From contig NZ_FUWJ01000003.1 in the NCBI RefSeq assembly GCF_900167455.1, positions 310,001-374,000 on the forward strand: a DNA stretch of 64,000 nt, given 5' to 3'. Shown piece after piece: positions 3,757 to 16,367 of the stretch (position 1 is the first letter of the stretch; the number at the start of each line of letters is the position of its first letter). The stretch is from Enhydrobacter aerosaccus (GTDB lineage Bacteria > Pseudomonadota > Alphaproteobacteria > Reyranellales > Reyranellaceae). A program made the translations under genes and the position numbers. Under the pieces are notes generated by a model. It saw only the letters and a list, made by a program, of their open reading frames with translations. It did not search any database and was not told the DNA's origin.

Positions 3757-5256
3757 TCATGACGCAGCTTGCCCAAGCGAACGCGGTAAGGCCGACGGGC
3801 TTGCCTGCTGGGTGCCGTCGCAATCCTCGAGTAGGAAACGGTCGAGCAGACGGTTGGCCCGTTTCCGGTCCGTGAACAGCTGTGCGTTGATCAGGTTACG
3901 CCCGACTGAGCCCAGGTAGAAGCGCTCATATTGCTCGTTGCGGCTGCCGAGCGCAGTTCCCGTGAAGTCCCAGGCCAGACGGAACAGCCGGCTGCGCTGC
4001 TCGGCGTCGATACCGACCCCGCGGAGATATTTGTCGATCAGCGGGCGAAGGTCCTTGTCCTGCAACGCGCCGAGGGCCGGCGTGGTCAGCAGGTTGTGCG
4101 AGCCGACGACCCGGATGATCTCGTTGACGCGCGGGAACCAGGTGGGAAGCGCCGCGCGCAATGCCAACAGGGGCCGGCCGTCGCAGCACCACAGACCGTT
4201 GCCATGTTCATGGGCGGCCTGCTCAGCCGCGAAGACCGAGCTGCGGGCAAACTCCGCATACATCGCGATCTCGCCCAGGAGCTGCTGGGTGGGCGGCTGG
4301 CTCGCGGAGTTGATGGCTTCGGCCATGCGCGTCGCCAGACCCCAGGCGAACTCGAGCTTGGTCTGCGCCCTGATCATGGTCTGCTGCATGATGTTGGACC
4401 ACCAGCTGGTCTTCATCACCGTATTGTAGACTTCGAGGTTGGCGTCGATGAAAAGCCGATCGCGCGGCACCTCGACATCGTCGAAGATCACGAAGGCATC
4501 CTGCTCGTCGAAGCGGCTCGAGAAGGGATGCTCGTAGCGGTTGGTGTTGACCGCCACGCTGTCGCGACAGATGAACTTGAGACCCGGCGTGTCCATCGGA
4601 ATGCAGAAGGCGAGCGCATGGACGTCCGCCGCGTTGGGCATCGCACTGCCGGGATAGACGGCGAGTTCGTCGGCGAAGGGCGCCAACGTCGCCAGCACGC
4701 GCGAGCCCCGCACCAGGATGCCGTTCGACGTGTTCTCGACCTTGTGCAGCTGAACCGGATCGAAGCCTACCGGATACTTGCCCTTGGCCAGATCGACCGT
4801 CGAGTGCACGATCGTGTGGGTGAGGGAGATGTCCTCGCGCGCGAGCTTCTTCTGGTAGCGGACCAGATTATCCGCGCCCTCGTCGTTACCGTTGCGCGCC
4901 CACTCGTCGCGGCGGCCGGCGAAGCCGGCGAAGGTCACGTTCATGTAGTCGGGCGTGCGGCCCATCAGGCCGACGGAGTATTCGGCCACACGCTCGAGGC
5001 CGCGATGACGCCGCAGGAGATCCTCGCGCGAATGCGGGATCATGTGGCTGACATTGATCGGCTCGCCCGTCTCCGGGTCAGGCATCAGGCAATCGTCGGC
5101 TGCCGCGTGCTGGAGATCGAACACCTCGGCCAAGGCATGGGCAGCACCCGTCAGCGCAGGATGATCGACGATCGAGCGCACGCGCTCGCCGCCAACCCAC
5201 AATTCGCGGCCGTCCTTCAGACCACGCAGGAATTGTTCGCCTGTCCGCGCCGCCAT
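3757..5256 (-). CDS. 4-hydroxyphenylacetate 3-monooxygenase (HpaB)-family flavin-dependent hydroxylase
   Basis: This 499-residue protein belongs to the FADH2-dependent hydroxylases that include HpaB and the pyoverdine chromophore family, which ortho-hydroxylate phenols with reduced flavin from a partner reductase. It has an acyl-CoA-dehydrogenase-like fold with the typical N-terminal stretch (GRTPDYMNVTFAGFAG) and a central substrate and flavin region (about 150-300). The ATG at 5256 follows GGGAGG with 6-nt spacing. A longer reading frame to 5469 would overlap the divergent LysR gene and is rejected. No HpaC-type reductase is adjacent. The VOC dioxygenase follows and the LysR regulator is divergent, so this looks like a small aromatic-degradation unit. 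Confidence 0.87.
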   Translation of the reverse strand: MAARTGEQFLRGLKDGRELWVGGERVRSIVDHPALTGAAHALAEVFDLQHAAADDCLMPDPETGEPINVSHMIPHSREDLLRRHRGLERVAEYSVGLMGRTPDYMNVTFAGFAGRRDEWARNGNDEGADNLVRYQKKLAREDISLTHTIVHSTVDLAKGKYPVGFDPVQLHKVENTSNGILVRGSRVLATLAPFADELAVYPGSAMPNAADVHALAFCIPMDTPGLKFICRDSVAVNTNRYEHPFSSRFDEQDAFVIFDDVEVPRDRLFIDANLEVYNTVMKTSWWSNIMQQTMIRAQTKLEFAWGLATRMAEAINSASQPPTQQLLGEIAMYAEFARSSVFAAEQAAHEHGNGLWCCDGRPLLALRAALPTWFPRVNEIIRVVGSHNLLTTPALGALQDKDLRPLIDKYLRGVGIDAEQRSRLFRLAWDFTGTALGSRNEQYERFYLGSVGRNLINAQLFTDRKRANRLLDRFLLEDCDGTQQASPSALPRSLGQAAS

Positions 5257-6372: not shown

Positions 6373-7320
6373 TTACCGGCGGGTCAGGCGCTCGACGACG
6401 AGGTCGAGCTGATCGTAATCGCGGATCTCGAGCGTCAGGATGCTTTGCTCACCGAGCCCACGAAGCGACAGCGACGCCTTGAGCCCGAGCGCCTCCTCGA
6501 GGCGCCGCTCGAGCGCCTTGGTGTCGGCGGTCTTGGTGCCTTCGACGGGAGCCGACACCTTGCCATTCTTGGCCTTCGGCGCTGCCGGCTTGTCGCCCGC
6601 GGCCAGGCGCTCCAGCTCGCGCACGCTGAGCTTCTCCTTCACCGTGCGCTCGGCCATGGTCACGGGATCAGGGAAGGCGAGAAGGGTGCGTGCCTGACCG
6701 GCGCTAAGCTCGTGCCGCTGGACCATGTCCCGCACCTCTTCGGGCAGGTCGAGCAGACGCAGGGTGTTGGCGATGTGGGGGCGGCTCCGCCCCATCGTCT
6801 CGGCCACCTGCTCCTGGGTCTGATTGAACTGGTCCATCAGGCGGCGATAACCCATGGCCTCGTCGATCGCCGACAGGTCGGTCCGTTGCAGGTTTTCGAT
6901 CAGCGCCAGCTGCAGGGCATCGAGATCGTCGAGCGTCCGGATGACGACCGGCACCTCGTGCAGCTGCGCCTTCTGCGCTGCCCGCCAGCGCCGCTCGCCA
7001 GCGATGATCTCGTAGGTATCCGGCTCGCCATAGAGCGGTCGCACAAGGATAGGTTGTAAAAGCCCGAACTGCTTGACCGAGTCGACCAGCCCATCCTTGT
7101 CCTCGAAGACTGTACGCGGCTGGAATTTGCCGGGGCGCAGATAGGTGATCGGCAAGGTCGCAGGCGCTCGCGCGGCCGCCGCCGGTCGCGGCGCTTCGCT
7201 CGGCGTCGGTTGAGGCGGTGCCGGAGGAGGTGACGGCGCCACGGCGGCGGCGACATCCTCGTCGCCAAGAAGGGCGGAGAGACCGCGGCCGAGACCGCGT
7301 GCTTTAGGAGACTGGCTCAT
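6373..7320 (-). CDS. parB: Chromosome-partitioning protein ParB
   Basis: This 315-residue CTP-dependent DNA clamp binds parS and spreads to load SMC and drive origin segregation with ParA. Visible parts are the N-terminal ParA-stimulating peptide (MSQSPKARGLGRGLSALLG), a Pro/Ala-rich linker, the CTP-binding domain with the GERRWRA motif, a helix-turn-helix (about 145-205) and a C-terminal dimerisation domain. The start at 7320 is chosen because the GLGRGLSALL motif must be near the N terminus. It overlaps the end of parA by 17 bp, which suggests translational coupling. Two perfect target sites lie a little upstream, inside rsmG and mnmG. Confidence 0.97.
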   Translation of the reverse strand: MSQSPKARGLGRGLSALLGDEDVAAAVAPSPPPAPPQPTPSEAPRPAAAARAPATLPITYLRPGKFQPRTVFEDKDGLVDSVKQFGLLQPILVRPLYGEPDTYEIIAGERRWRAAQKAQLHEVPVVIRTLDDLDALQLALIENLQRTDLSAIDEAMGYRRLMDQFNQTQEQVAETMGRSRPHIANTLRLLDLPEEVRDMVQRHELSAGQARTLLAFPDPVTMAERTVKEKLSVRELERLAAGDKPAAPKAKNGKVSAPVEGTKTADTKALERRLEEALGLKASLSLRGLGEQSILTLEIRDYDQLDLVVERLTRR

Positions 7321-8161
7321 CGGATGCCTGTGAAACGGCCGCTTCCGCGGCATTGCGCCGGCGGCGGATGAACTCGCTCGCCAGCAGGATATAGGCCTGC
7401 GATCCGGCGCAGGCATTGTCGTAGATGATCACCGGCAGGCCGTGCGAGGGCGCTTCGGCGATACGCACGTTGCGCGGAATGGTCGTGCCGAACACCAGCT
7501 CGCCGAAATGGCCGCGCACGTCGGCTTCGACCTGCTGGCTCAGCGTCATGCGACGATCGACCATCGTCAGAACGACCCCGGCGATATGCAACTTTGGATT
7601 GAGTTTCTTTTTGACGCGATCTACGGTGTTCGAGAGGGCGCCGATCCCTTCCAGCGCCAGGAACTCGGCCTGCAGCGGCACCAGCACGGCATCGACCGCG
7701 ACCAGGGCGTTCAGGGTCACGAGACCGAGCGAGGGCGGGCAATCGATCAGGATTGTGTCCCAGCGGGCGCGCGCGTCGTTTCCAGGAGCGGCCAGGGCAT
7801 CTGCCAGACGATGCTCCCGTCGTTCGAGATCAATCAATTCGATCTCGGCGCCAGCGAGCTGCACCGAGGCCGGCATGACCGACAGGTTCGGAATTTGGGT
7901 GGTCCGGACGGAATCGGTGAGCGACGTCAGGCCGAGCAGAAATTCATAGGAGCCGGGGGACCGGTTGTTGCGCGCGACCCCCAGCCCGGTCGACGCATTG
8001 CCCTGGGGATCGAGGTCGATCAACAGCACGCGATCGCCGACGGCAGCCAAGGCTGTCGCCAGGTTGATCGCCGTTGTCGTCTTGCCGACGCCACCTTTCT
8101 GGTTAGCGATGGCGAAGATCTTTGGCGGCGTAGGCTGTGATTCGGAGGAGGACGGCGTCAC
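7304..8161 (-). CDS. parA: Chromosome-partitioning ATPase ParA
   Basis: This 285-residue Walker-type ATPase forms the DNA-bound gradient that pulls ParB-parS complexes. It has the deviant Walker A motif KGGVGKTTTAINLA near residue 22, a switch I/Walker A' region with DLDPQGNAS, and Walker B in ILIDCPPSLG. No ATG fits before Walker A, so a GTG at 8161 is used. This start lies inside the end of rsmG with a 59-bp overlap, and the 3' end overlaps parB by 17 bp. The trio is therefore tightly coupled. Confidence 0.97.
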   Translation of the reverse strand: MTPSSSESQPTPPKIFAIANQKGGVGKTTTAINLATALAAVGDRVLLIDLDPQGNASTGLGVARNNRSPGSYEFLLGLTSLTDSVRTTQIPNLSVMPASVQLAGAEIELIDLERREHRLADALAAPGNDARARWDTILIDCPPSLGLVTLNALVAVDAVLVPLQAEFLALEGIGALSNTVDRVKKKLNPKLHIAGVVLTMVDRRMTLSQQVEADVRGHFGELVFGTTIPRNVRIAEAPSHGLPVIIYDNACAGSQAYILLASEFIRRRRNAAEAAVSQASDEPVS

Positions 8162-8762
8162 GATCCGTTACGCTGGTAAAAGGCTGAGCTTCAATGTCCC
8201 AGTCCTGACGGGCTTCGGTCAATTCACCCTGCCAGCCTTTTCCTTTGTGGAAAAGGCAAATAGCGGGGTCGTTCCGGTGCGGGGCGGCCCAAACGAGCAA
8301 CTGTTTGAGCGGAGCTAGGGCGCGGGCAGTCACGACATCGGCTTTGGCCGGTGGGACAGTCTCGATGCGTCCAACGACCACTGTTGGCGGCTTGGGCAGG
8401 TCCATGCGGCGCGCTGCTTCTCCGAGGAACGCGCCCTTCCGGGCGTCCGACTCGATCAGCGTTATGGCCAAGCTCGGCACCATCGCCGCCAGCACCAGGC
8501 CGGGAAAGCCGCCCCCCGATCCGAGGTCCGTCAGGCTCTTGGCGTCGCGCGGGACGAGAGGCACGAGCTGGGCAGAGTCCAGGACGTGGCGAATCCAGAT
8601 GTCTTCCAGGGTAGCCCGGCCGACGAGATTGATGGCCTTCTGCCATCGACCAAGAGTCAGGACGAGGGCCTCAAGACGGTCCCGTGTTTCACGTGAAACA
8701 TCCACCCGGAGTTCCCGCATCTCTTCGAGGAAGAGCTCTCGGCCGGCATGGACGTGGCTCAT
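8103..8762 (-). CDS. rsmG: 16S rRNA (guanine-527-N7)-methyltransferase RsmG
   Basis: This methyltransferase of about 219 residues modifies G527 of 16S rRNA using S-adenosylmethionine. The SAM-binding loop LGSGGGFPGL and the helix WQKAINLVG are present. The start is uncertain: GTG 8801, ATG 8762 and ATG 8720 are in frame and none has a strong ribosome site. I choose 8762 from family length (about 205-220). The peptide VSRET near residue 22 is encoded by a perfect parS site, so this coding segment is under double constraint. It sits in the mnmG-rsmG-parA-parB order typical of bacterial origins. Confidence 0.95.
   Translation of the reverse strand: MSHVHAGRELFLEEMRELRVDVSRETRDRLEALVLTLGRWQKAINLVGRATLEDIWIRHVLDSAQLVPLVPRDAKSLTDLGSGGGFPGLVLAAMVPSLAITLIESDARKGAFLGEAARRMDLPKPPTVVVGRIETVPPAKADVVTARALAPLKQLLVWAAPHRNDPAICLFHKGKGWQGELTEARQDWDIEAQPFTSVTDRDAVLLRITAYAAKDLRHR
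8685..8700. promoter_or_regulatory. parS: parS centromere site 1 (inside rsmG)
   Basis: TGTTTCACGTGAAACA is a perfect 16-bp palindrome and matches the canonical bacterial parS. It lies in the rsmG coding sequence, where it encodes VSRET. It is the expected binding site of the ParB encoded about 1.4 kb away. Confidence 0.96.
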
Positions 8763-8928: not shown

Positions 8929-10833
8929 TCAAGCCGCCCGTCGGCGAACATGCTTGAGGAGTGCGACCAGCGCCGCCGGAGTGACGCCCGAGATTCGCGC
9001 CGCCTGCCCTAGGGTGACCGGCTTGTGCGCCTGGAGCTTCTGACGGACCTCGTTGCTCAGGCTTCCGACTGCGCTGTAGTCGAGGTCGGGCGGTAGTTCC
9101 AAGGCCTCGTCCCGACGGTACGCGGCGATATCCTGGCGCTGGCGATCGAGATAGCCGTCGTAACGGGCGTCGATGGTTAGTTGTTCGACGACACCACTAT
9201 CTATAGTAGCCAGTTGTGGCCATATGCCCGCTAGCCGCTCCCACGACATCTCCGGGTAGGCCAGCAAGTCCAGCGCCGAGCGAACGACGCCATCCTGATT
9301 GATCACGATCCCGAGCTTGGCCAGAGCCGATGGGCTTGCGCGGAGCGATCCAGCCAATTCCCGTCCAGACTCCAAGGCCCGTTGTTTCACGTGAAACATC
9401 CGGACGCGTTCCGACCTGACACAACCTATTGCGATGCCCTTGGGGGTCAGGCGCTGATCGGCATTGTCTGCTCTCAGCCATAGCCGATACTCGGCCCGGG
9501 ACGTGAACATCCGGTAGGGCTCAGTAACGCCAAGACTGACGAGATCATCGATCAGCACGCCAATGTAGCCATCGGCTCTGTCGACCGTGAAGGGTTGGGA
9601 TCCTCCTGCGGCCAGTGCCGCGTTCAATCCGGCTACCAATCCTTGCGCTGCGGCTTCCTCATACCCTGTGGTGCCATTGATCTGGCCAGCCATATAGAGA
9701 CCGGGCACGCGCCGGGTCTCTAAGGTCGAAAACAGCTCCCGCGGGTCGATGTGGTCGTACTCGATGGCATAGCCCGGCCGCAGCATCACCGCCCGTTCCA
9801 GGCCGGGGATGGTTCGCAGAAGCGCCGTCTGTACGTCGCGCGGCAGGGAGGTCGAAATGCCATTGGGATAGACAGTGGGATCGTCGAGTCCCTCGGGCTC
9901 GAGAAAGATCTGATGGCGATCCCGCTGTGCGAAACGAACGACCTTGTCCTCGATCGATGGACAGTAGCGCGGCCCGACGCCTTCGATCTGCCCTGAATAC
10001 ATCGGCGCGCGGTGCAGATTGGCGCGGATGATGTCATGGGTCGCTGGCGTCGTCTCGGTGACGTGGCAAGCGACCTGCGGCGTCGTGATCTCGGTCGTCA
10101 GGTAGGAGAAGGGGCGCGGTGGGGTGTCGCCCTCCTGGCGCTCCAACGAGGCATAATCGATGGTGCGACCGTCGAGCCGTGCCGGCGTCCCCGTCTTGAG
10201 GCGGCCGAGCGCGAAGCCAAGCGCCTGCAACCTCAGAGCGAGTGGTGTCGACGGCTCTTCGACGGCATTCGGCGCGAGATCGGCTGGCAGGCCATTGCGT
10301 TGCCCGCGGGCCCGTCCAGCCGGCATTGTCTGTTCGCCCAGATGAATAAGGCCTCTGAGGAAGGTTCCAGTCGTCAGGACCACGCGCCCGGCGGTGATCT
10401 CCCGGCCCGACTCCGTTACCACACCGACACACGTCCCGCGTGTATCGACCAGAATATCGCCGACGGCTTCCGCCCGAATCTCCAGGTTGCTTTGCTCGGC
10501 CAACAGCACCTGCATCGCCTGCCGATAGAGCTTGCGATCGGCTTGTGCCCTTGGCCCTCGAACGGCCGGGCCCTTGGACAGGTTGAGAGTGCGGAATTGG
10601 ATGCCCGCTTGATCGATGGCCCGTCCCATGACGCCGTCCAGCGCATCGATCTCGCGCACGAGATGGCCCTTGCCCAGGCCACCAATGGCTGGGTTGCAGG
10701 ACATCTCGCCGATCGTGTCGAGGCGATGGGTGAGAAGCAGGGTGCGCGCGCCCAGGCGCGCCGCAGCAGCCGCTGCTTCGCAACCGGCATGGCCGGCTCC
10801 CACCACGATCACGTCATAGGAAAAACCCGACAT
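8929..10833 (-). CDS. mnmG: tRNA uridine-5-carboxymethylaminomethyl(34) synthesis enzyme MnmG (GidA)
   Basis: This 634-residue FAD protein works with MnmE to modify wobble uridine of tRNAs. It shows the N-terminal FAD site [14 protein letters not shown], the family signature [15 protein letters not shown] (GPR..A..D), the PSIEDK region, and a C-terminal helical MnmE-binding domain. ATG 10833 is preferred to GTG 10854 because AAGG is 6 nt upstream and the family starts just before the FAD motif. A perfect parS site lies inside it at 9383-9398, encoding FHVKQ. Unusually, its partner mnmE is not adjacent: ku and ligD separate them. Confidence 0.97.
9383..9398. promoter_or_regulatory. parS: parS centromere site 2 (inside mnmG)
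   Basis: This is a second perfect copy of TGTTTCACGTGAAACA, 698 bp from the first. It lies in the mnmG coding sequence, where it encodes the FHVKQ peptide. Two sites this close to parAB are typical of an origin-proximal centromere cluster. Confidence 0.96.
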
Positions 10834-10970
10834 GGCGGGCCTTGTACGCTCCACACCCGGCCCCGGTCCAGCCAGCCGCTCATTGACGACCGGAATCGGT
10901 TATCACCAGAGCCTGCAGCTAGGATCGGCGATCATGCAGACTGCGCCACCCTTTCCTGTCCGGGGACTTC

Positions 10971-11006
10971 CCCATTTTTCGTCCATTTATTTAATGGACA
11001 AATGGG
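10971..11006. terminator. Long AT-rich hairpin directly after ku
   Basis: CCCATTT (10971-10977) pairs with AAATGGG (11000-11006), and GTCCATT (10981-10987) pairs with AATGGAC (10993-10999). This gives 14 bp of pairing with a 3-nt bulge and a 5-nt TATTT loop. It begins one base after the ku stop codon and is strikingly AT-rich for this genome. There is no clear U-tract, so it may be a transcript 3' end stabiliser, a terminator or a boundary relic. Confidence 0.5.
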
Positions 11007-11007
11007 A

Positions 11008-11901
11008 TCAGGCGGCGCGCTTCCGCCCGGCGCCGCGCTTACGCGTCTTGGCCCGCTTCTTCTTGGCGTGAGCGGCCATGAAACGCTCGGCCTTCTCGCG
11101 GCCGGCACCGCCGCCGTGCAGACTGCGGCGCAGGGCATCCATCAGGTCGACGACCTTTTCCTCGGGCTCTTCCTCTGCCGCCGTAACCAGCGGCTTACCC
11201 TTGCGCTTGCGGTCGATGAGCTCGCGCAGCGCGTCCTCGTAGCGGTCGGTGAACTCCGACGGATCGAACCTCGCTTCCTGCTGCTCGATGATCTTCTGCG
11301 CGATCTCCAGCATGCGCGCATCGGGCTTTGGCAGGCTGCGGTCGAAGATTTCGCCGCTGCTGCGGATCTCGTCGTGCGTACGCAAGGTCGTCAGCAAGAT
11401 GCCGCTGTCGCGCGGTTCCAGGGCGCAAAGCCGTTCCCGCTGATGCAGGACCAGACGGCCAAGCGCGACCTTGTTCTCCTTTGCCATGGCCGCCCTGATG
11501 ACGGAGAAGGCCTCCACGCCGGTCTTGCCCGATGGGGCCAGATAGTAGGGCTCGTCCCAATAGATGCGGTCTATATCGTTGGCACTCACGAAATGCTCGA
11601 TATCGATGAGTCGCGTCGACTCGATCTTCACCGCATCGAGCTCTTCCTTGTCGACCACCACATACTTGTTCTTGGCAACCGCAAATCCCCGCACCAACTC
11701 CGAGCGGTCAACGGGCTCTCCCGTGACGGCATCGACCGTCTGCATGTGAATGCGGTTGTTGGTCTTGGGATTGATCAGGTTGAAGTGGATATCGGCGGTG
11801 CGCTCCGTCGCCGTGTACAGCGCGACGGGGCAGGTGACGAGCGACAGCCGCAGATGGCCCTCCCAGGTCGGACGGAGCGCCTTACGCTGACCTTTGGCCA
11901 T
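11008..11901 (-). CDS. ku: Ku, DNA-end-binding NHEJ protein
   Basis: This 297-residue bacterial Ku forms a homodimeric ring on double-strand ends and recruits LigD. The N-terminal beta-barrel begins RPTWEGHLRLSLVTCPVALY and includes GFAVAKNKYVVVD, followed by the bridge region. The C-terminal tail is rich in Lys and Arg (KKKRAKTRKRGAGRKRAA), as in many Ku proteins with end-threading or DNA-binding tails. The start codon is 3 nt after the ligD stop, with GAGG overlapping the ligD end, so the two are co-translated. A strong hairpin follows the stop. Confidence 0.97.
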   Translation of the reverse strand: MAKGQRKALRPTWEGHLRLSLVTCPVALYTATERTADIHFNLINPKTNNRIHMQTVDAVTGEPVDRSELVRGFAVAKNKYVVVDKEELDAVKIESTRLIDIEHFVSANDIDRIYWDEPYYLAPSGKTGVEAFSVIRAAMAKENKVALGRLVLHQRERLCALEPRDSGILLTTLRTHDEIRSSGEIFDRSLPKPDARMLEIAQKIIEQQEARFDPSEFTDRYEDALRELIDRKRKGKPLVTAAEEEPEEKVVDLMDALRRSLHGGGAGREKAERFMAAHAKKKRAKTRKRGAGRKRAA

Positions 11902-11904
11902 AAG

Positions 11905-14547
11905 CTATTCCTCGCTGTTCACAAGCGTCTCGATTGCCGCTCGCAGCGGCCGCGCCGCCTCGTCATATCCCCGCCACGGCTTGCTCTTGCGCAGCAAGGC
12001 CGCGGCGGTGCGAATCGTATAGCGCTGCGGATCGAGTCCGGCCTTGACCTGGCTCCAGTCGAGCGGCATCGACACCGGCGCGCCATCCCGGGCGCGCGGC
12101 GACAGTGGCGCCACCGCGGTCGAGGTGCGGTCGTTACGCAGATAATCGAGAAAGATCCGCCCGCCACGTTCCTTCTTCGCCATGTTGAGCACGTAGCGGT
12201 CCGGCTCCGCATCGGCGAGACGCCGACAAATCTCCTTTGCGAACATCTTGGCCGCATCCCAGTCCGGCGTCTTCTTGTCATCGGTGAGCGGCACCACAAC
12301 ATGCAGTCCCTTCCCGCCCGTCGTCTTGCAGAAGGGAACGAGACCAAGCTTCTCCAGGCGCCGCCGCACCTCCTGGGCACCCTTGATCACTTCCTTGAAG
12401 TCGACATCGGGCGCGGGATCGAGATCAAACACCAGACGGCCGGGCAGGTCCGGTGCACCCGGCTGGCTGTTCCAGGGATGAAGCTCCGTCGCGCCGATCT
12501 GCGCCATCGCCGCCAGGGCCTCGACCCGGTCGATCTGAAGGTAGGGTTTGCGATCGCCACGCACCACCACCTCGGTAATCAGATGTGATCCACCCGGCAT
12601 GGCGTGCCGCTGGAAGAACTTCTGGTCTCCGTGGATGCCGTCCGGCGTCCGAACGATGGAGCAGGGTCGCCCCTTGATGTGCCCCAGCATCCACTCGCCG
12701 ATCTCCTCGTAGTACCGCGCCAGCTCGAGCTTGGTGACGGGCGGATCCTCGTCCGGCCACAACGCCTTGTCCGGGTGCGAGATCGACACTCCCATGACCA
12801 CGCCCGGTCCGTTGGGGGCGGTCGCACCACTCGACTTTGCCTTCGATGCTCGGCCTCGTTTGGGCTTCGGCACCGCCAGTTCGGCCTTGGTTGCTTCGAC
12901 GGGCTCCTCGGCTTCCACTTCCTCCGCCGGCTTATCGCTGCGCAGTCCCTTGAACGCGGCCTGTCGTACGTTCCCGTCCCGCGTCCAGCCGGCGAACTCG
13001 ATCTCCGCCACAAGCTCGGGACTTGCCCAGTGCATGTTGGCTTCCTTGGGCGGACTGGCGCCGGACGCGAAGGGCGTTGTCTTGCTCTCGACCGCCTTGA
13101 GCTTGGGTACGAGGCTGCGCATCACCGATTCGCCGAAGCCCGTGCCGACGCGCCCGACATAGACCAGCCGGTCGTTGCGATAGACGCCGGCCAACAACGA
13201 TCGAAGCTTGGAGCCTGTGGTGGTCCAGCCGCCGATGATCACTTCCTGGCCGCCCCGGCATTTGGCCTTGGTCCAGGTGCCATGGCGACCCGAGCGATAG
13301 GGCGCGTCGAGTTCCTTGGAGACGATGCCCTCGAAATGCATGCGGCAGGCCGACTCCAGCACCGCATCGCCCGCCGTCTCGAAGTGATCGACATAGCGGA
13401 TCAGCGGGTGCTTTCCCTTCACCTTCGACAGCAATTCCTTCAGCCGCTCCTTGCGCTCGCGCAGGGGCAGGGGCCGCAGATCCTCGCCGTCAACGAACAA
13501 CAGGTCGAAGGCGAAGAAAATCAGGTCTTCCGATCGCCCCTCCGACAGGGCGGCCTGCAGCGCCCCGAAATCGGGGGCGCCGGCCTTGTCGAGCGCAACC
13601 GCCTCACCATCGATCATGCAGTCCGGCAGCTTCTCCGCCGCCTTGGCGATCGCCGAGAATTTGTCGGTCCAATCGAGTCCTTTGCGGGTACGCAGCGTGG
13701 CTTCGCCATCCTCGATGCGCAGCTGCAAACGATAGCCATCGAACTTCACCTCGTGTCCCCAGCCGGAACCGGACGGCGCGCGGTCGACGAGCTTGCACAA
13801 TTGCGGTTCGACGAAGTCTGGCATCGACCGAACTTTCCGTGCCTTGATCTTCGACTCGGGCAGCGTGACCTTGTCGCCGCCGCCCTTCTTGTTGCTGTCC
13901 CAGACCGCATTCGCACCGCGCTTCTTCGCCGTCATGAACGGTGTCGGCGCACGTCCCTTGCCGAGCGCAATCTCCTTCAGGGTGCGGCCCGACGCAATCG
14001 AACTGGGATCCTTCAGCAGACGATCGCCGTCGCCATCGACCGCGGCCTCGTCGCGATGCTTGATCAGGAGCCAGTTGTTGCGCTTGCTGCCGCGACTGCG
14101 TTCCCGATCCCACTTCATCCGCACCAGCACCCAGCTTCCGCTCAAGCGACCGCCGACCAGCGTGAACTTGAGATCGCCGCGCTTCAGCCCGTCATGGGGA
14201 TCGCCTTCGGGAATCCAGTAGCCGCGATCCCAGAGCTGCACTGTCCCGCCGCCATACTGGCCTTCGGGAATGGTGCCTTCGAAATCGCCGTAGTCGAGCG
14301 GGTGATCCTCGACCTCGACGGCCAGGCGCTTGTCGTGCGGATCGAGCGAGGGCCCCTTGGTGACAGCCCACGACTTGAAGACGCCATCGAGTTCCAACCG
14401 GAAGTCGTAGTGCAGGCGGGTCGCATCGTGACGCTGGATGACGAAGCGCAACTGATCGGCCGCAGGCACCGCAGCTTTGCCCGAGGGCTCGTCGGTGTGG
14501 CTGAAATCGCGCTTGGCACGATAGGAGGCGAGATTGTCCCTGCGCAT
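11905..14547 (-). CDS. ligD: LigD, multifunctional ATP-dependent DNA ligase / polymerase / 3'-phosphoesterase
   Basis: This 880-residue NHEJ enzyme has domains in the order phosphoesterase, ligase, polymerase, the arrangement common in proteobacteria. The phosphoesterase domain (about 1-190) has [13 protein letters not shown] with H40, D41 and H46. The ligase domain (about 240-540) has the nucleophile K268 in EVKFDG. After a Lys/Pro-rich linker, the archaeo-eukaryotic-primase-type polymerase domain (about 590-880) has the metal pair D708 and D710 in VFDLDP. ATG 14547 has GAGG 6 nt upstream and is preferred to GTG 14565. It is followed by ku, and the pair lies between mnmE and mnmG. Confidence 0.96.
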
Positions 14548-14601
14548 CGAAGACCTCGGCTGCACAGTCAGGTGAACGTGAGGCGCTTACCCCGGTTCCC
14601 C

Positions 14602-15996
14602 TTACTTGCCAATGCAGAAGTCGCGGAAGATCACGTCCAGAAGCTCGTCGATGCGCACGGTGCCGGTGATCCGCCCGATCGCGCGCATGGCTAGGCGCAG
14701 GTCCTCGGCGGCCAGCGCAACTTCCGGAGCGTGAAGCGCACGGTCGAGCGCGGCAACAGCCTCGATCAGGGCCTCGCGATGGCGAACCCGGGTAAGAGGG
14801 GGAGCGCCGGCTCCCTGTTCCATGAGCAGGCCGGCCGAGTGCTGCAATCGGACCAGCAGCTCCGGCAGCCCGCTGCCCGACCGTGCCGACAGTGGCACCA
14901 CGTCCACGGCATCGACAGGGGCGGCATCGATAGGAGCGACATCGACCTTGTTGACGACGACGATATCGTGCGTCGGATCCCAGCGCGTGCCCCTGGCGGT
15001 CAGTTCGGTCATCTCGGCTCGCCAGTCGGTCGTGGCATCGAGCACCAGCAGGCGCAGATCGGCCGCCTCGGCCCGGGCCTGGGCCCGGCGCACGCCCTCC
15101 TGTTCGATGACGTCGCTGGTGGCCCGCAATCCGGCCGTATCGGCGAGCACGACGGGCCAGCCCCCGAGGTCGAGATGGACCTCGATCACGTCGCGGGTCG
15201 TACCGGCCGTCTCCGACACGATCGCGGCCTCACGCTGGGCCAGCAGGTTAAGCAGGGACGACTTGCCGGCATTGGGCGGCCCGATGATGGCAATGCTGAG
15301 CCCTTCGCGCAGCCGCTCGCCCCGCCTGTCTTCGAGATGGGCAGCGATCTCCGACCGCAGGTGCGTGATCTCCGTCCGCACCTCGTCGGCAATGCCGACA
15401 GGAAGATCCTCGTCGGGAAAATCGATCGCCGCCTCGAGATGGGCCAGGGCCCGCAGCCCGAGCGTGCGCCATTCCTCGTAGAGCCGATGTAGCGCGCCAT
15501 CCATCTGCTGCAACGCCTGGCGGCGCTGTTGGTCGGTTTCGGCGGCAACCAGATCGGCAATGGCCTCGGCTTGGGTCAGGTCCAGCTTGTTGTGCTCGAA
15601 AGCACGACGGGTGAATTCACCCGGCTCGGCGAGGCGACAGAAGCCGAGTTTCTGGATGGCTGCCAGCGTCCCGTTCACCACCGCCCGGCCGCCATGCAGA
15701 TGCAGCTCGGCCATGCTTTCGCCGGTCTCCGACCGGGGCGCTTCGAACCACACGACCAGTCCGCGATCGATCACCTCGCCGGTGACCGGGTCGAGGATGG
15801 TCCGCAGCGCCATATGCCGTGGCGGGGGCAGCGCGGGATCACGCGCCGAGTATCCGCGCTCGAAGGCTCGCCGCTCGGTCAGGAAGACCAGGGCATCCGC
15901 CGCCCGCGGCCCGCTCAACCGGATCACCGCCAGGGCACCGGGCCTGACCAGCGTCGGTGCCGGCGTGCCCAGGGCGTAGATCGTCGACCCGTCCAT
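14602..15996 (-). CDS. mnmE: tRNA modification GTPase MnmE (TrmE)
   Basis: This 464-residue G protein works with MnmG on tRNA wobble uridines. It has the N-terminal formyl-tetrahydrofolate-binding domain, a helical domain, an inserted Ras-like G domain with GPPNAGKSSLLN (G1), DTAGLR (G3) and NKVD (G4), and the invariant C-terminal CIGK. Its ATG overlaps the stop of the upstream HhH gene by one base (TGATG), implying coupled translation. It ends 54 bp before ligD. Normally mnmG would follow directly. Confidence 0.97.
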   Translation of the reverse strand: MDGSTIYALGTPAPTLVRPGALAVIRLSGPRAADALVFLTERRAFERGYSARDPALPPPRHMALRTILDPVTGEVIDRGLVVWFEAPRSETGESMAELHLHGGRAVVNGTLAAIQKLGFCRLAEPGEFTRRAFEHNKLDLTQAEAIADLVAAETDQQRRQALQQMDGALHRLYEEWRTLGLRALAHLEAAIDFPDEDLPVGIADEVRTEITHLRSEIAAHLEDRRGERLREGLSIAIIGPPNAGKSSLLNLLAQREAAIVSETAGTTRDVIEVHLDLGGWPVVLADTAGLRATSDVIEQEGVRRAQARAEAADLRLLVLDATTDWRAEMTELTARGTRWDPTHDIVVVNKVDVAPIDAAPVDAVDVVPLSARSGSGLPELLVRLQHSAGLLMEQGAGAPPLTRVRHREALIEAVAALDRALHAPEVALAAEDLRLAMRAIGRITGTVRIDELLDVIFRDFCIGK

Positions 15997-16367
15997 CAGC
16001 GTTTGGGCGCGCCCTGCGGCGGGTTGGCCGGCCGGACCGGCGCGGCTGGTGTCGCGGGCAGGGGCCGCGCCGTGACCTTGTCGCTGATCTTCTCGTACAG
16101 CGATTCGGGAATGATATGGCGCTCGACCAGCTCGGTCTTGGCTCGAAACGGACGCGACCGGATGATGGCGTCGGCCCGGACCTCGCCGATTCCCTCGAGC
16201 GTCATCAGGTCGTCCCGGCTGGCCGAGTTGAGATCGATCATGCTCGATGCCGGCGTCGCTGTCGGTTTCGGCTGGGCGCCGGCAGAGCCAGGGTCAGTTG
16301 CGGCGACGGCAACAAGCAGCGCGACAAGGAGGGGTAAACGCAACAGCGCTCGAACGGTCCGGGCCAT
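15996..16367 (-). CDS. Secreted helix-hairpin-helix (ComEA-like) protein
   Basis: This 123-residue protein has a signal peptide (about 1-31, cleaving near GSAGAQP) and one helix-hairpin-helix unit (about 44-95, DLNSASRDDLMTLEGIGEVRA), followed by a Pro/Ala-rich tail. The HhH unit resembles ComEA and the photosystem II PsbU type, which bind DNA or proteins outside the cytoplasm. Only one HhH domain and no membrane anchor beyond the signal are seen. It is translationally coupled to mnmE and divergent from glnD (75-bp spacer). A role in DNA uptake is possible but not supported by neighbours. Confidence 0.8.
   Translation of the reverse strand: MARTVRALLRLPLLVALLVAVAATDPGSAGAQPKPTATPASSMIDLNSASRDDLMTLEGIGEVRADAIIRSRPFRAKTELVERHIIPESLYEKISDKVTARPLPATPAAPVRPANPPQGAPKR

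Follow-up and report, generated by a model that had tools for sequence, protein, structure and literature searches.

Why do ligD and ku, two genes of non-homologous end joining (NHEJ), lie between mnmE and mnmG, and what drives their expression? We addressed this question in a window of 64 kb (the whole stretch of DNA that was analysed), part of a 6.77-Mb assembly (G000, contig C12). Open reading frames and Pfam matches gave the minus-strand order HHH protein, mnmE, ligD, ku, mnmG, rsmG, parA and parB (Table 1). From the mnmE stop (14602) to the mnmG ATG (10833) the sole genes are ligD and ku, and the coordinates confirm the preliminary description of a same-strand pair separated by a 3-nt gap. 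The ligD frame can be extended to a GTG at 14565 (11905-14565) and that of mnmG to a GTG at 10854 (8929-10854), with the ATG codons at 14547 and 10833, respectively, being the likelier starts. Neither an Rfam family nor a tRNA gene was found within the window. On the sequence evidence presented below, we consider it likely that ligD and ku form a two-gene NHEJ operon driven by an EcfG-type promoter of its own just after mnmE, and that this operon was gained once early in the genus, inherited mainly vertically and lost repeatedly.

Table 1. Features of the ligD-ku locus and of the general stress response genes. Positions are those of the window unless a locus is named.
Feature	Position	Strand	Basis or remark
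HHH protein	15996-16367	-	
mnmE, tRNA modification GTPase, upstream flank	14602-15996	-	Pfam TrmE_N, MnmE_helical
EcfG-type (general stress) promoter, predicted, GGAAC-N16-CGTT	14575-14599 (contig 324575-324599)	-	motif scan with controls
ligD, phosphoesterase-ligase-polymerase order	11905-14547	-	Pfam, PDB matches
ku, bacterial Ku homodimer subunit	11008-11901	-	Pfam Ku PF02735, E 4e-47
Perfect hairpin in the ku-mnmG gap, no U-run	10981-10999	-	sequence
mnmG, downstream flank	8929-10833	-	Pfam GIDA, E 7e-165
parS inside mnmG	9383-9398	.	exact palindrome
parS in the rsmG ORF or just before the true rsmG start	8685-8700	.	exact palindrome
parA	7304-8161	-	Pfam AAA_31/ParA
parB	6373-7416	-	Pfam ParB_N, HTH_ParB
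PhyR	L203 5845-6645		
NepR	L203 3416-3709		28.2 bits, cut-off 25.7
ECF sigma factors	L203 3744-4385 and 4471-4938		

The predicted LigD carries three catalytic domains on one protein (PF13298, PF01068, PF04679 and PF21686), each domain with solved relatives among the PDB matches. A Ku beta-barrel protein is encoded beside it, and the pair thus has the gene content expected of a putative LigD-Ku NHEJ system. The assembly holds a second ku on contig C8 (L116 9457-11664), beside pyrophosphatase and isochorismatase-like genes, and no ligD match was found near this copy within 20 kb of surrounding DNA. In some relatives, members of both neighbouring families follow ku within the mnmE-mnmG gap.

The preliminary description noted that mnmE and mnmG are contiguous in many alphaproteobacteria and took the pair between them as a possible lineage-specific insertion. 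For the class survey 114 genomes were searched. Of 112 class genomes outside the genus, 91 gave both mnmE and mnmG and 21 gave one or neither; the two genes were found on one contig and strand in 79 of the 91. The gap, taken as the distance between match ends and so inflated in some genomes by partial matches, had a median of 104 bp, was at most 300 bp in 69 of the 79, so that adjacency is the norm in the class, and exceeded 1 kb in six. None of five gaps of this last kind gave a ligD or ku match, the sixth (G153) being outside the sample.

The genus itself was taken to be Reyranella because the records with the same locus include R. aquatilis, R. soli and R. massiliensis. Here mnmE and mnmG were on one contig in 44 of 65 genomes; in the remaining 21 they were on different contigs or one was missing. 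Among the 44 testable genomes the gap held ligD-ku in 27, ligD alone in one, ligD remnants in two and neither gene in 14, and it ranged from 34 bp to 19.3 kb with a median of 6.6 kb. In five sister-genus genomes in which mnmE and mnmG are neighbours (G004, G005, G070, G072 and G073), the gap contained other genes and gave no ligD or ku match, while in a further one (G071) the two flanks were far apart. The order adds one more genome, which lacked a usable mnmE match. Thus the insertion is lineage-specific at the level of the genus but is not peculiar to this genome, and an arrangement ancestral and widespread in the order, the converse possibility, was found within the genus only.

The prediction on expression came from the DNA directly upstream of the operon. 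In the window a predicted EcfG-type promoter fits into the space between mnmE and ligD, with 2 nt from the mnmE stop to the -35 element and 27 nt from the -10 element to the ligD ATG. The motif scan covered 130 nt ahead of the operon's leading gene in 35 loci of the genus, in 23 of which this gene is ligD and in 12 a catalase gene. The strict motif, GGAAC-N16-17-CGTT, was present in 22 of the 35, and the form G[GC]AAC-N16-17-CGTT in 33, the GCAAC variant having been admitted after the upstream sequences were inspected, with literature support coming later. Allowing any base before GTT raised the count to 34. By comparison, 100 dinucleotide shuffles gave means of 0.08, 0.11 and 0.35 for the strict, G[GC]AAC and loosest forms, with maxima of 1, 1 and 2, respectively. 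The 35 loci are related and are not independent trials; two of them have ligD remnants only (G045 and G044) and one is without ku (G033). The two misses of the G[GC]AAC form were G037, where AGTT replaces CGTT, and G013, whose contig starts inside a gapped catalase gene with the promoter lying beyond. G028 was excluded from the count as its contig starts inside ligD, and for G056 the ligD start was assigned manually by homology, at position 5248, the gene caller having started too early.

The motif also followed the operon when its surroundings changed. Where a catalase gene stands ahead of ligD, the motif preceded the catalase gene in 12 of 12 loci, and in the eight loci where other genes put 3.8-7.9 kb between the operon and mnmE, the motif stayed with the operon in every case. 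Control genes of the same loci lacked it: it was found before none of 52 mnmG, 33 ku and 32 histidine-phosphatase genes. It was likewise absent before 31 ku genes sampled elsewhere in the genus, and it preceded three of nine ku genes in the sister genera; this ku control covered the 300 nt before each ku match, so that a promoter ahead of an upstream operon gene would escape it. Genome-wide, the strict motif was not enriched (89 matches vs 146 for the reversed control). Therefore the case for a promoter is made by the position and conservation of the predicted motif, and it is these, not its mere occurrence, that carry weight. A chance match, with ligD-ku constitutive or regulated otherwise, would fit a motif that is weak by itself and without genome-wide enrichment, but position and conservation exceed both the shuffles and the control genes, and we regard this reading as highly improbable.

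A different explanation is that ligD-ku lacks a functional promoter and is expressed by read-through within the housekeeping mnmE transcript, a ride on this transcript being one option given in the preliminary description. The two genes share a strand, just 54 nt separate the mnmE stop from the ligD ATG, and neither a terminator nor a sigma-70 promoter was found between them; in a search that took in the surroundings of the operon, no promoter-like site of the sigma-70 type and no intrinsic terminator between genes came up. Against this, the EcfG-type motif is kept before the first gene in nearly all loci, including all eight in which the operon is several kilobases away from mnmE, with inverted molybdo-oxidoreductase genes in the intervening DNA. 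A predicted promoter that stays with the operon at such a distance undercuts the proposal, and we judge read-through as the sole source of expression unlikely. Because no terminator was seen, read-through from mnmE may still occur in the window and may add to ligD-ku expression. Between ku and mnmG, the hairpin lies in a 91-nt stretch whose predicted fold is much more stable than those of shuffled sequences (z-score -4.5); the hairpin was not called as a terminator and is possibly a 3' end element.

Of the general stress response genes, the genome encodes PhyR, NepR and two ECF sigma factors within one 8-kb stretch (Table 1). Among 75 family genomes, 53 gave a NepR match with E<=0.001, and 38 were over the cut-off. 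A NepR match was missing in seven of the 35 genomes of the motif scan (G008, G013, G029, G033, G036, G039 and G056), which may reflect an overlooked short gene or a missing partner. Stress activates PhyR, and activated PhyR binds NepR and so frees the EcfG sigma factor. Under our preferred reading of an operon with its own promoter, free EcfG would bind and initiate transcription at GGAAC-N16-CGTT, LigD and Ku would rise on growth arrest, oxidation or desiccation, and the two proteins would rejoin double-strand breaks in resting cells.

When did the pair enter the gap? On a tree of MnmE plus MnmG from 57 genomes, built by a quick method, the ligD-ku label (31 rows) requires 13 changes, a count in which G028, whose contig is simply cut, was scored as a fragment, and G015 and G041, whose contigs are split, as 'none'. 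This count alone does not separate gain from loss. Most Reyranella sub-clades carry the label, as does G068, a genome that branches close to the base. The 33 full-length LigDs of the interval (28 with both flanks, five with one flank) formed one supported clade whose sub-clades resemble those of MnmE/MnmG; the clade also takes in five additional rows, whose contigs are cut or are other Reyranella-like ones. Distances correlated at 0.88 for LigD-Ku, 0.86 for LigD-MnmG and 0.76 for LigD-MnmE, and KatE, the catalase, correlated with LigD at 0.91 over 12 genomes and with MnmE at 0.62 over 11. Of 30 genomes chosen for an RpoB search, 24 yielded the protein. With long RpoB only (>1100 residues), the comparison on which we rely, r was 0.77 for LigD-RpoB and 0.64 for Ku-RpoB over 14 genomes, and none of 5000 permutations was as high. 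With partial RpoB included the correlations were weak (LigD-RpoB 0.16, Ku-RpoB 0.07), as were those of MnmE and MnmG.

Since LigD distances follow those of MnmE, MnmG and the unlinked RpoB, one early gain in the genus with many losses is the simplest reading of these sequences, and ligD-ku seems to have been present between mnmE and mnmG since early in the genus. Additionally, the ligD remnants in G045 and G044 point to loss. On this reading the operon would have come into the gap a single time, early in the ancestry of the genus and probably within a larger stress cluster with the catalase gene directly upstream of ligD. Mainly vertical inheritance with many losses would have followed, and in the lineage of the window the catalase gene would have gone from the gap, leaving the promoter directly before ligD. 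On a contig binned as Bosea (L132) there is katE-ligD-ku, very close to a Reyranella LigD; the Bosea assignment is probably a binning error.

The mnmE 3' end is used for integration by SGI1, and a recent horizontal insertion of ligD-ku by an integrative element of this kind would agree with the high variability of the interval in the genus (34 bp to about 19 kb) and with the defence genes that some genomes have in the interval, for example a type I restriction system or an nSTAND protein. However, no integrase or transposase family was found by Pfam among 39 different interval proteins drawn from some of the gene clusters, a few of them from sister genera, LigD and Ku distances agree with RpoB, and the GC3 of ligD and ku is like that of the window. 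We therefore hold a recent insertion to be very unlikely. A mobile element was rejected on these same 39 proteins, and in the window the insert consists of ligD and ku only, without the integrase gene expected of an SGI1-like element at mnmE. Composition, for which the preliminary description suggested a comparison of codon usage with the flanks, gave no foreign signature, and foreign origin by composition was rejected: GC3 was 0.81 for ligD and 0.83 for ku vs a mean of 0.815 for 39 window ORFs. The ligD value, calculated from a start that lay 7 codons inside the gene, was unchanged for the full ORF. As for the defence genes themselves, the type I restriction system lies in the gap of G042 (L113), and that of G020 (L081) contains an nSTAND NTPase, a patatin-like protein and a PIN-domain pair.

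In several relatives the gap also contains an inverted CoxL/M/S-like oxidoreductase trio (L069 1387-5112, L092 and others). The motif was found before the iron-sulphur subunit gene of the CoxLMS-like trio in six of seven loci, with the pyrophosphatase operon in four of four (twice before ppa and twice before the gene preceding ppa), and before four of six OmpA-like genes, every one in the GCAAC form. In G011 one trio site overlaps the ligD site on the opposite strand, but this trio gene also has another site that is not shared. Iron-transport operons of the same gap were without the motif, which preceded none of six TonB receptor genes and none of 14 genes of the ABC-ATPase cluster, four of the latter belonging to other transporters.

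This variable gap is also close to the partition sites. Two exact parS matches (TGTTTCACGTGAAACA) were found in the window, against a chance expectation of 0.08 at <=3 mismatches, and the whole assembly holds no other site with <=1 mismatch. The earlier claim of NHEJ genes near parS holds literally, with 1.6 kb from the ku stop to the nearer site. In three single-contig genus-mates (G011, G048 and G051) all parS sites lie within mnmG or less than 100 bp past its end. Judged from predicted promoters and gene content, the ligD-ku pair of the window seems to be what is left of a general-stress cluster beside parS. A bolder proposal makes the Reyranella mnmE-mnmG gap a genus-wide stress island of catalase, LigD-Ku, CoxLMS-like, pyrophosphatase and OmpA-like genes, whose EcfG-type operons were kept or gathered near parS since a ParB-covered, early-replicated and pole-held region favours expression or dosage in resting cells; we think this doubtful.

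A gene-order oddity thereby becomes a regulatory prediction: one NHEJ operon of Reyranella would be stress-induced, the other ku copies examined (0/31) lacking the motif. Additionally, the space next to the partition sites, almost closed in most of the class, has turned into a variable site with many genes that have stress-type promoters, and one can ask directly how ParB-bound DNA influences which genes lie near it.

A narrow literature search gave no paper on the Reyranella locus among the matches listed, and RpoE2, LigD, NHEJ and the general stress response nowhere occurred together in it. Two papers name both Reyranella and ligD, each word once or twice. For catalase-ligD linkage, and for mnmE, mnmG or parS, nothing relevant was among the matches listed. 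The searched text of a comparative study of bacterial NHEJ does not name Reyranella (PMC7719229).

Among known systems, the LigD-Ku NHEJ of the Pseudomonas and Mycobacterium type likewise has three catalytic domains in one protein; here, ku follows ligD in one operon within the mnmE-mnmG gap. In Sinorhizobium meliloti, a 2019 study reportedly placed ku/ligD under RpoE2, an EcfG-type sigma factor, making NHEJ stress-inducible. Stress inducibility would thus be shared with our predicted operon, whereas S. meliloti has several ku copies with ligD partners at other genomic places. In Mesorhizobium loti, three of the four ku genes and one of the three ligD genes are induced by heat (PMC3989490).

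The closest parallels come from sphingomonads. One study gives GGAAC-N16-CGTT as the EcfG promoter, in which the -35 box is most often GGAAC or GCAAC, and assigns ku-ligD of Sphingopyxis granuli to the EcfG regulon (PMC7083833). Another describes an EcfG-dependent Ku with a GGAAC motif in Sphingomonas melonis, where the regulon also includes outer-membrane proteins, catalases and homologues of CoxL/M/S; for the Cox genes and for one of the catalases, the motif scores are under that paper's cut-off of 10 (PMC6599016). Both systems resemble ours in a Ku or LigD with a GGAAC-type -35 box and in catalases of the same regulons (PMC7083833, PMC6599016), and the CoxL/M/S-like and outer-membrane genes listed for S. 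melonis match gene kinds in the Reyranella interval (PMC6599016). Thus EcfG-dependent ku/ligD is already known in other alphaproteobacteria. In contrast to S. granuli and S. melonis, Reyranella has ligD followed by ku in the mnmE-mnmG gap beside parS, under a regulation predicted from sequence, and it is this location, together with the clustering of stress-type operons there, that seems to be new.
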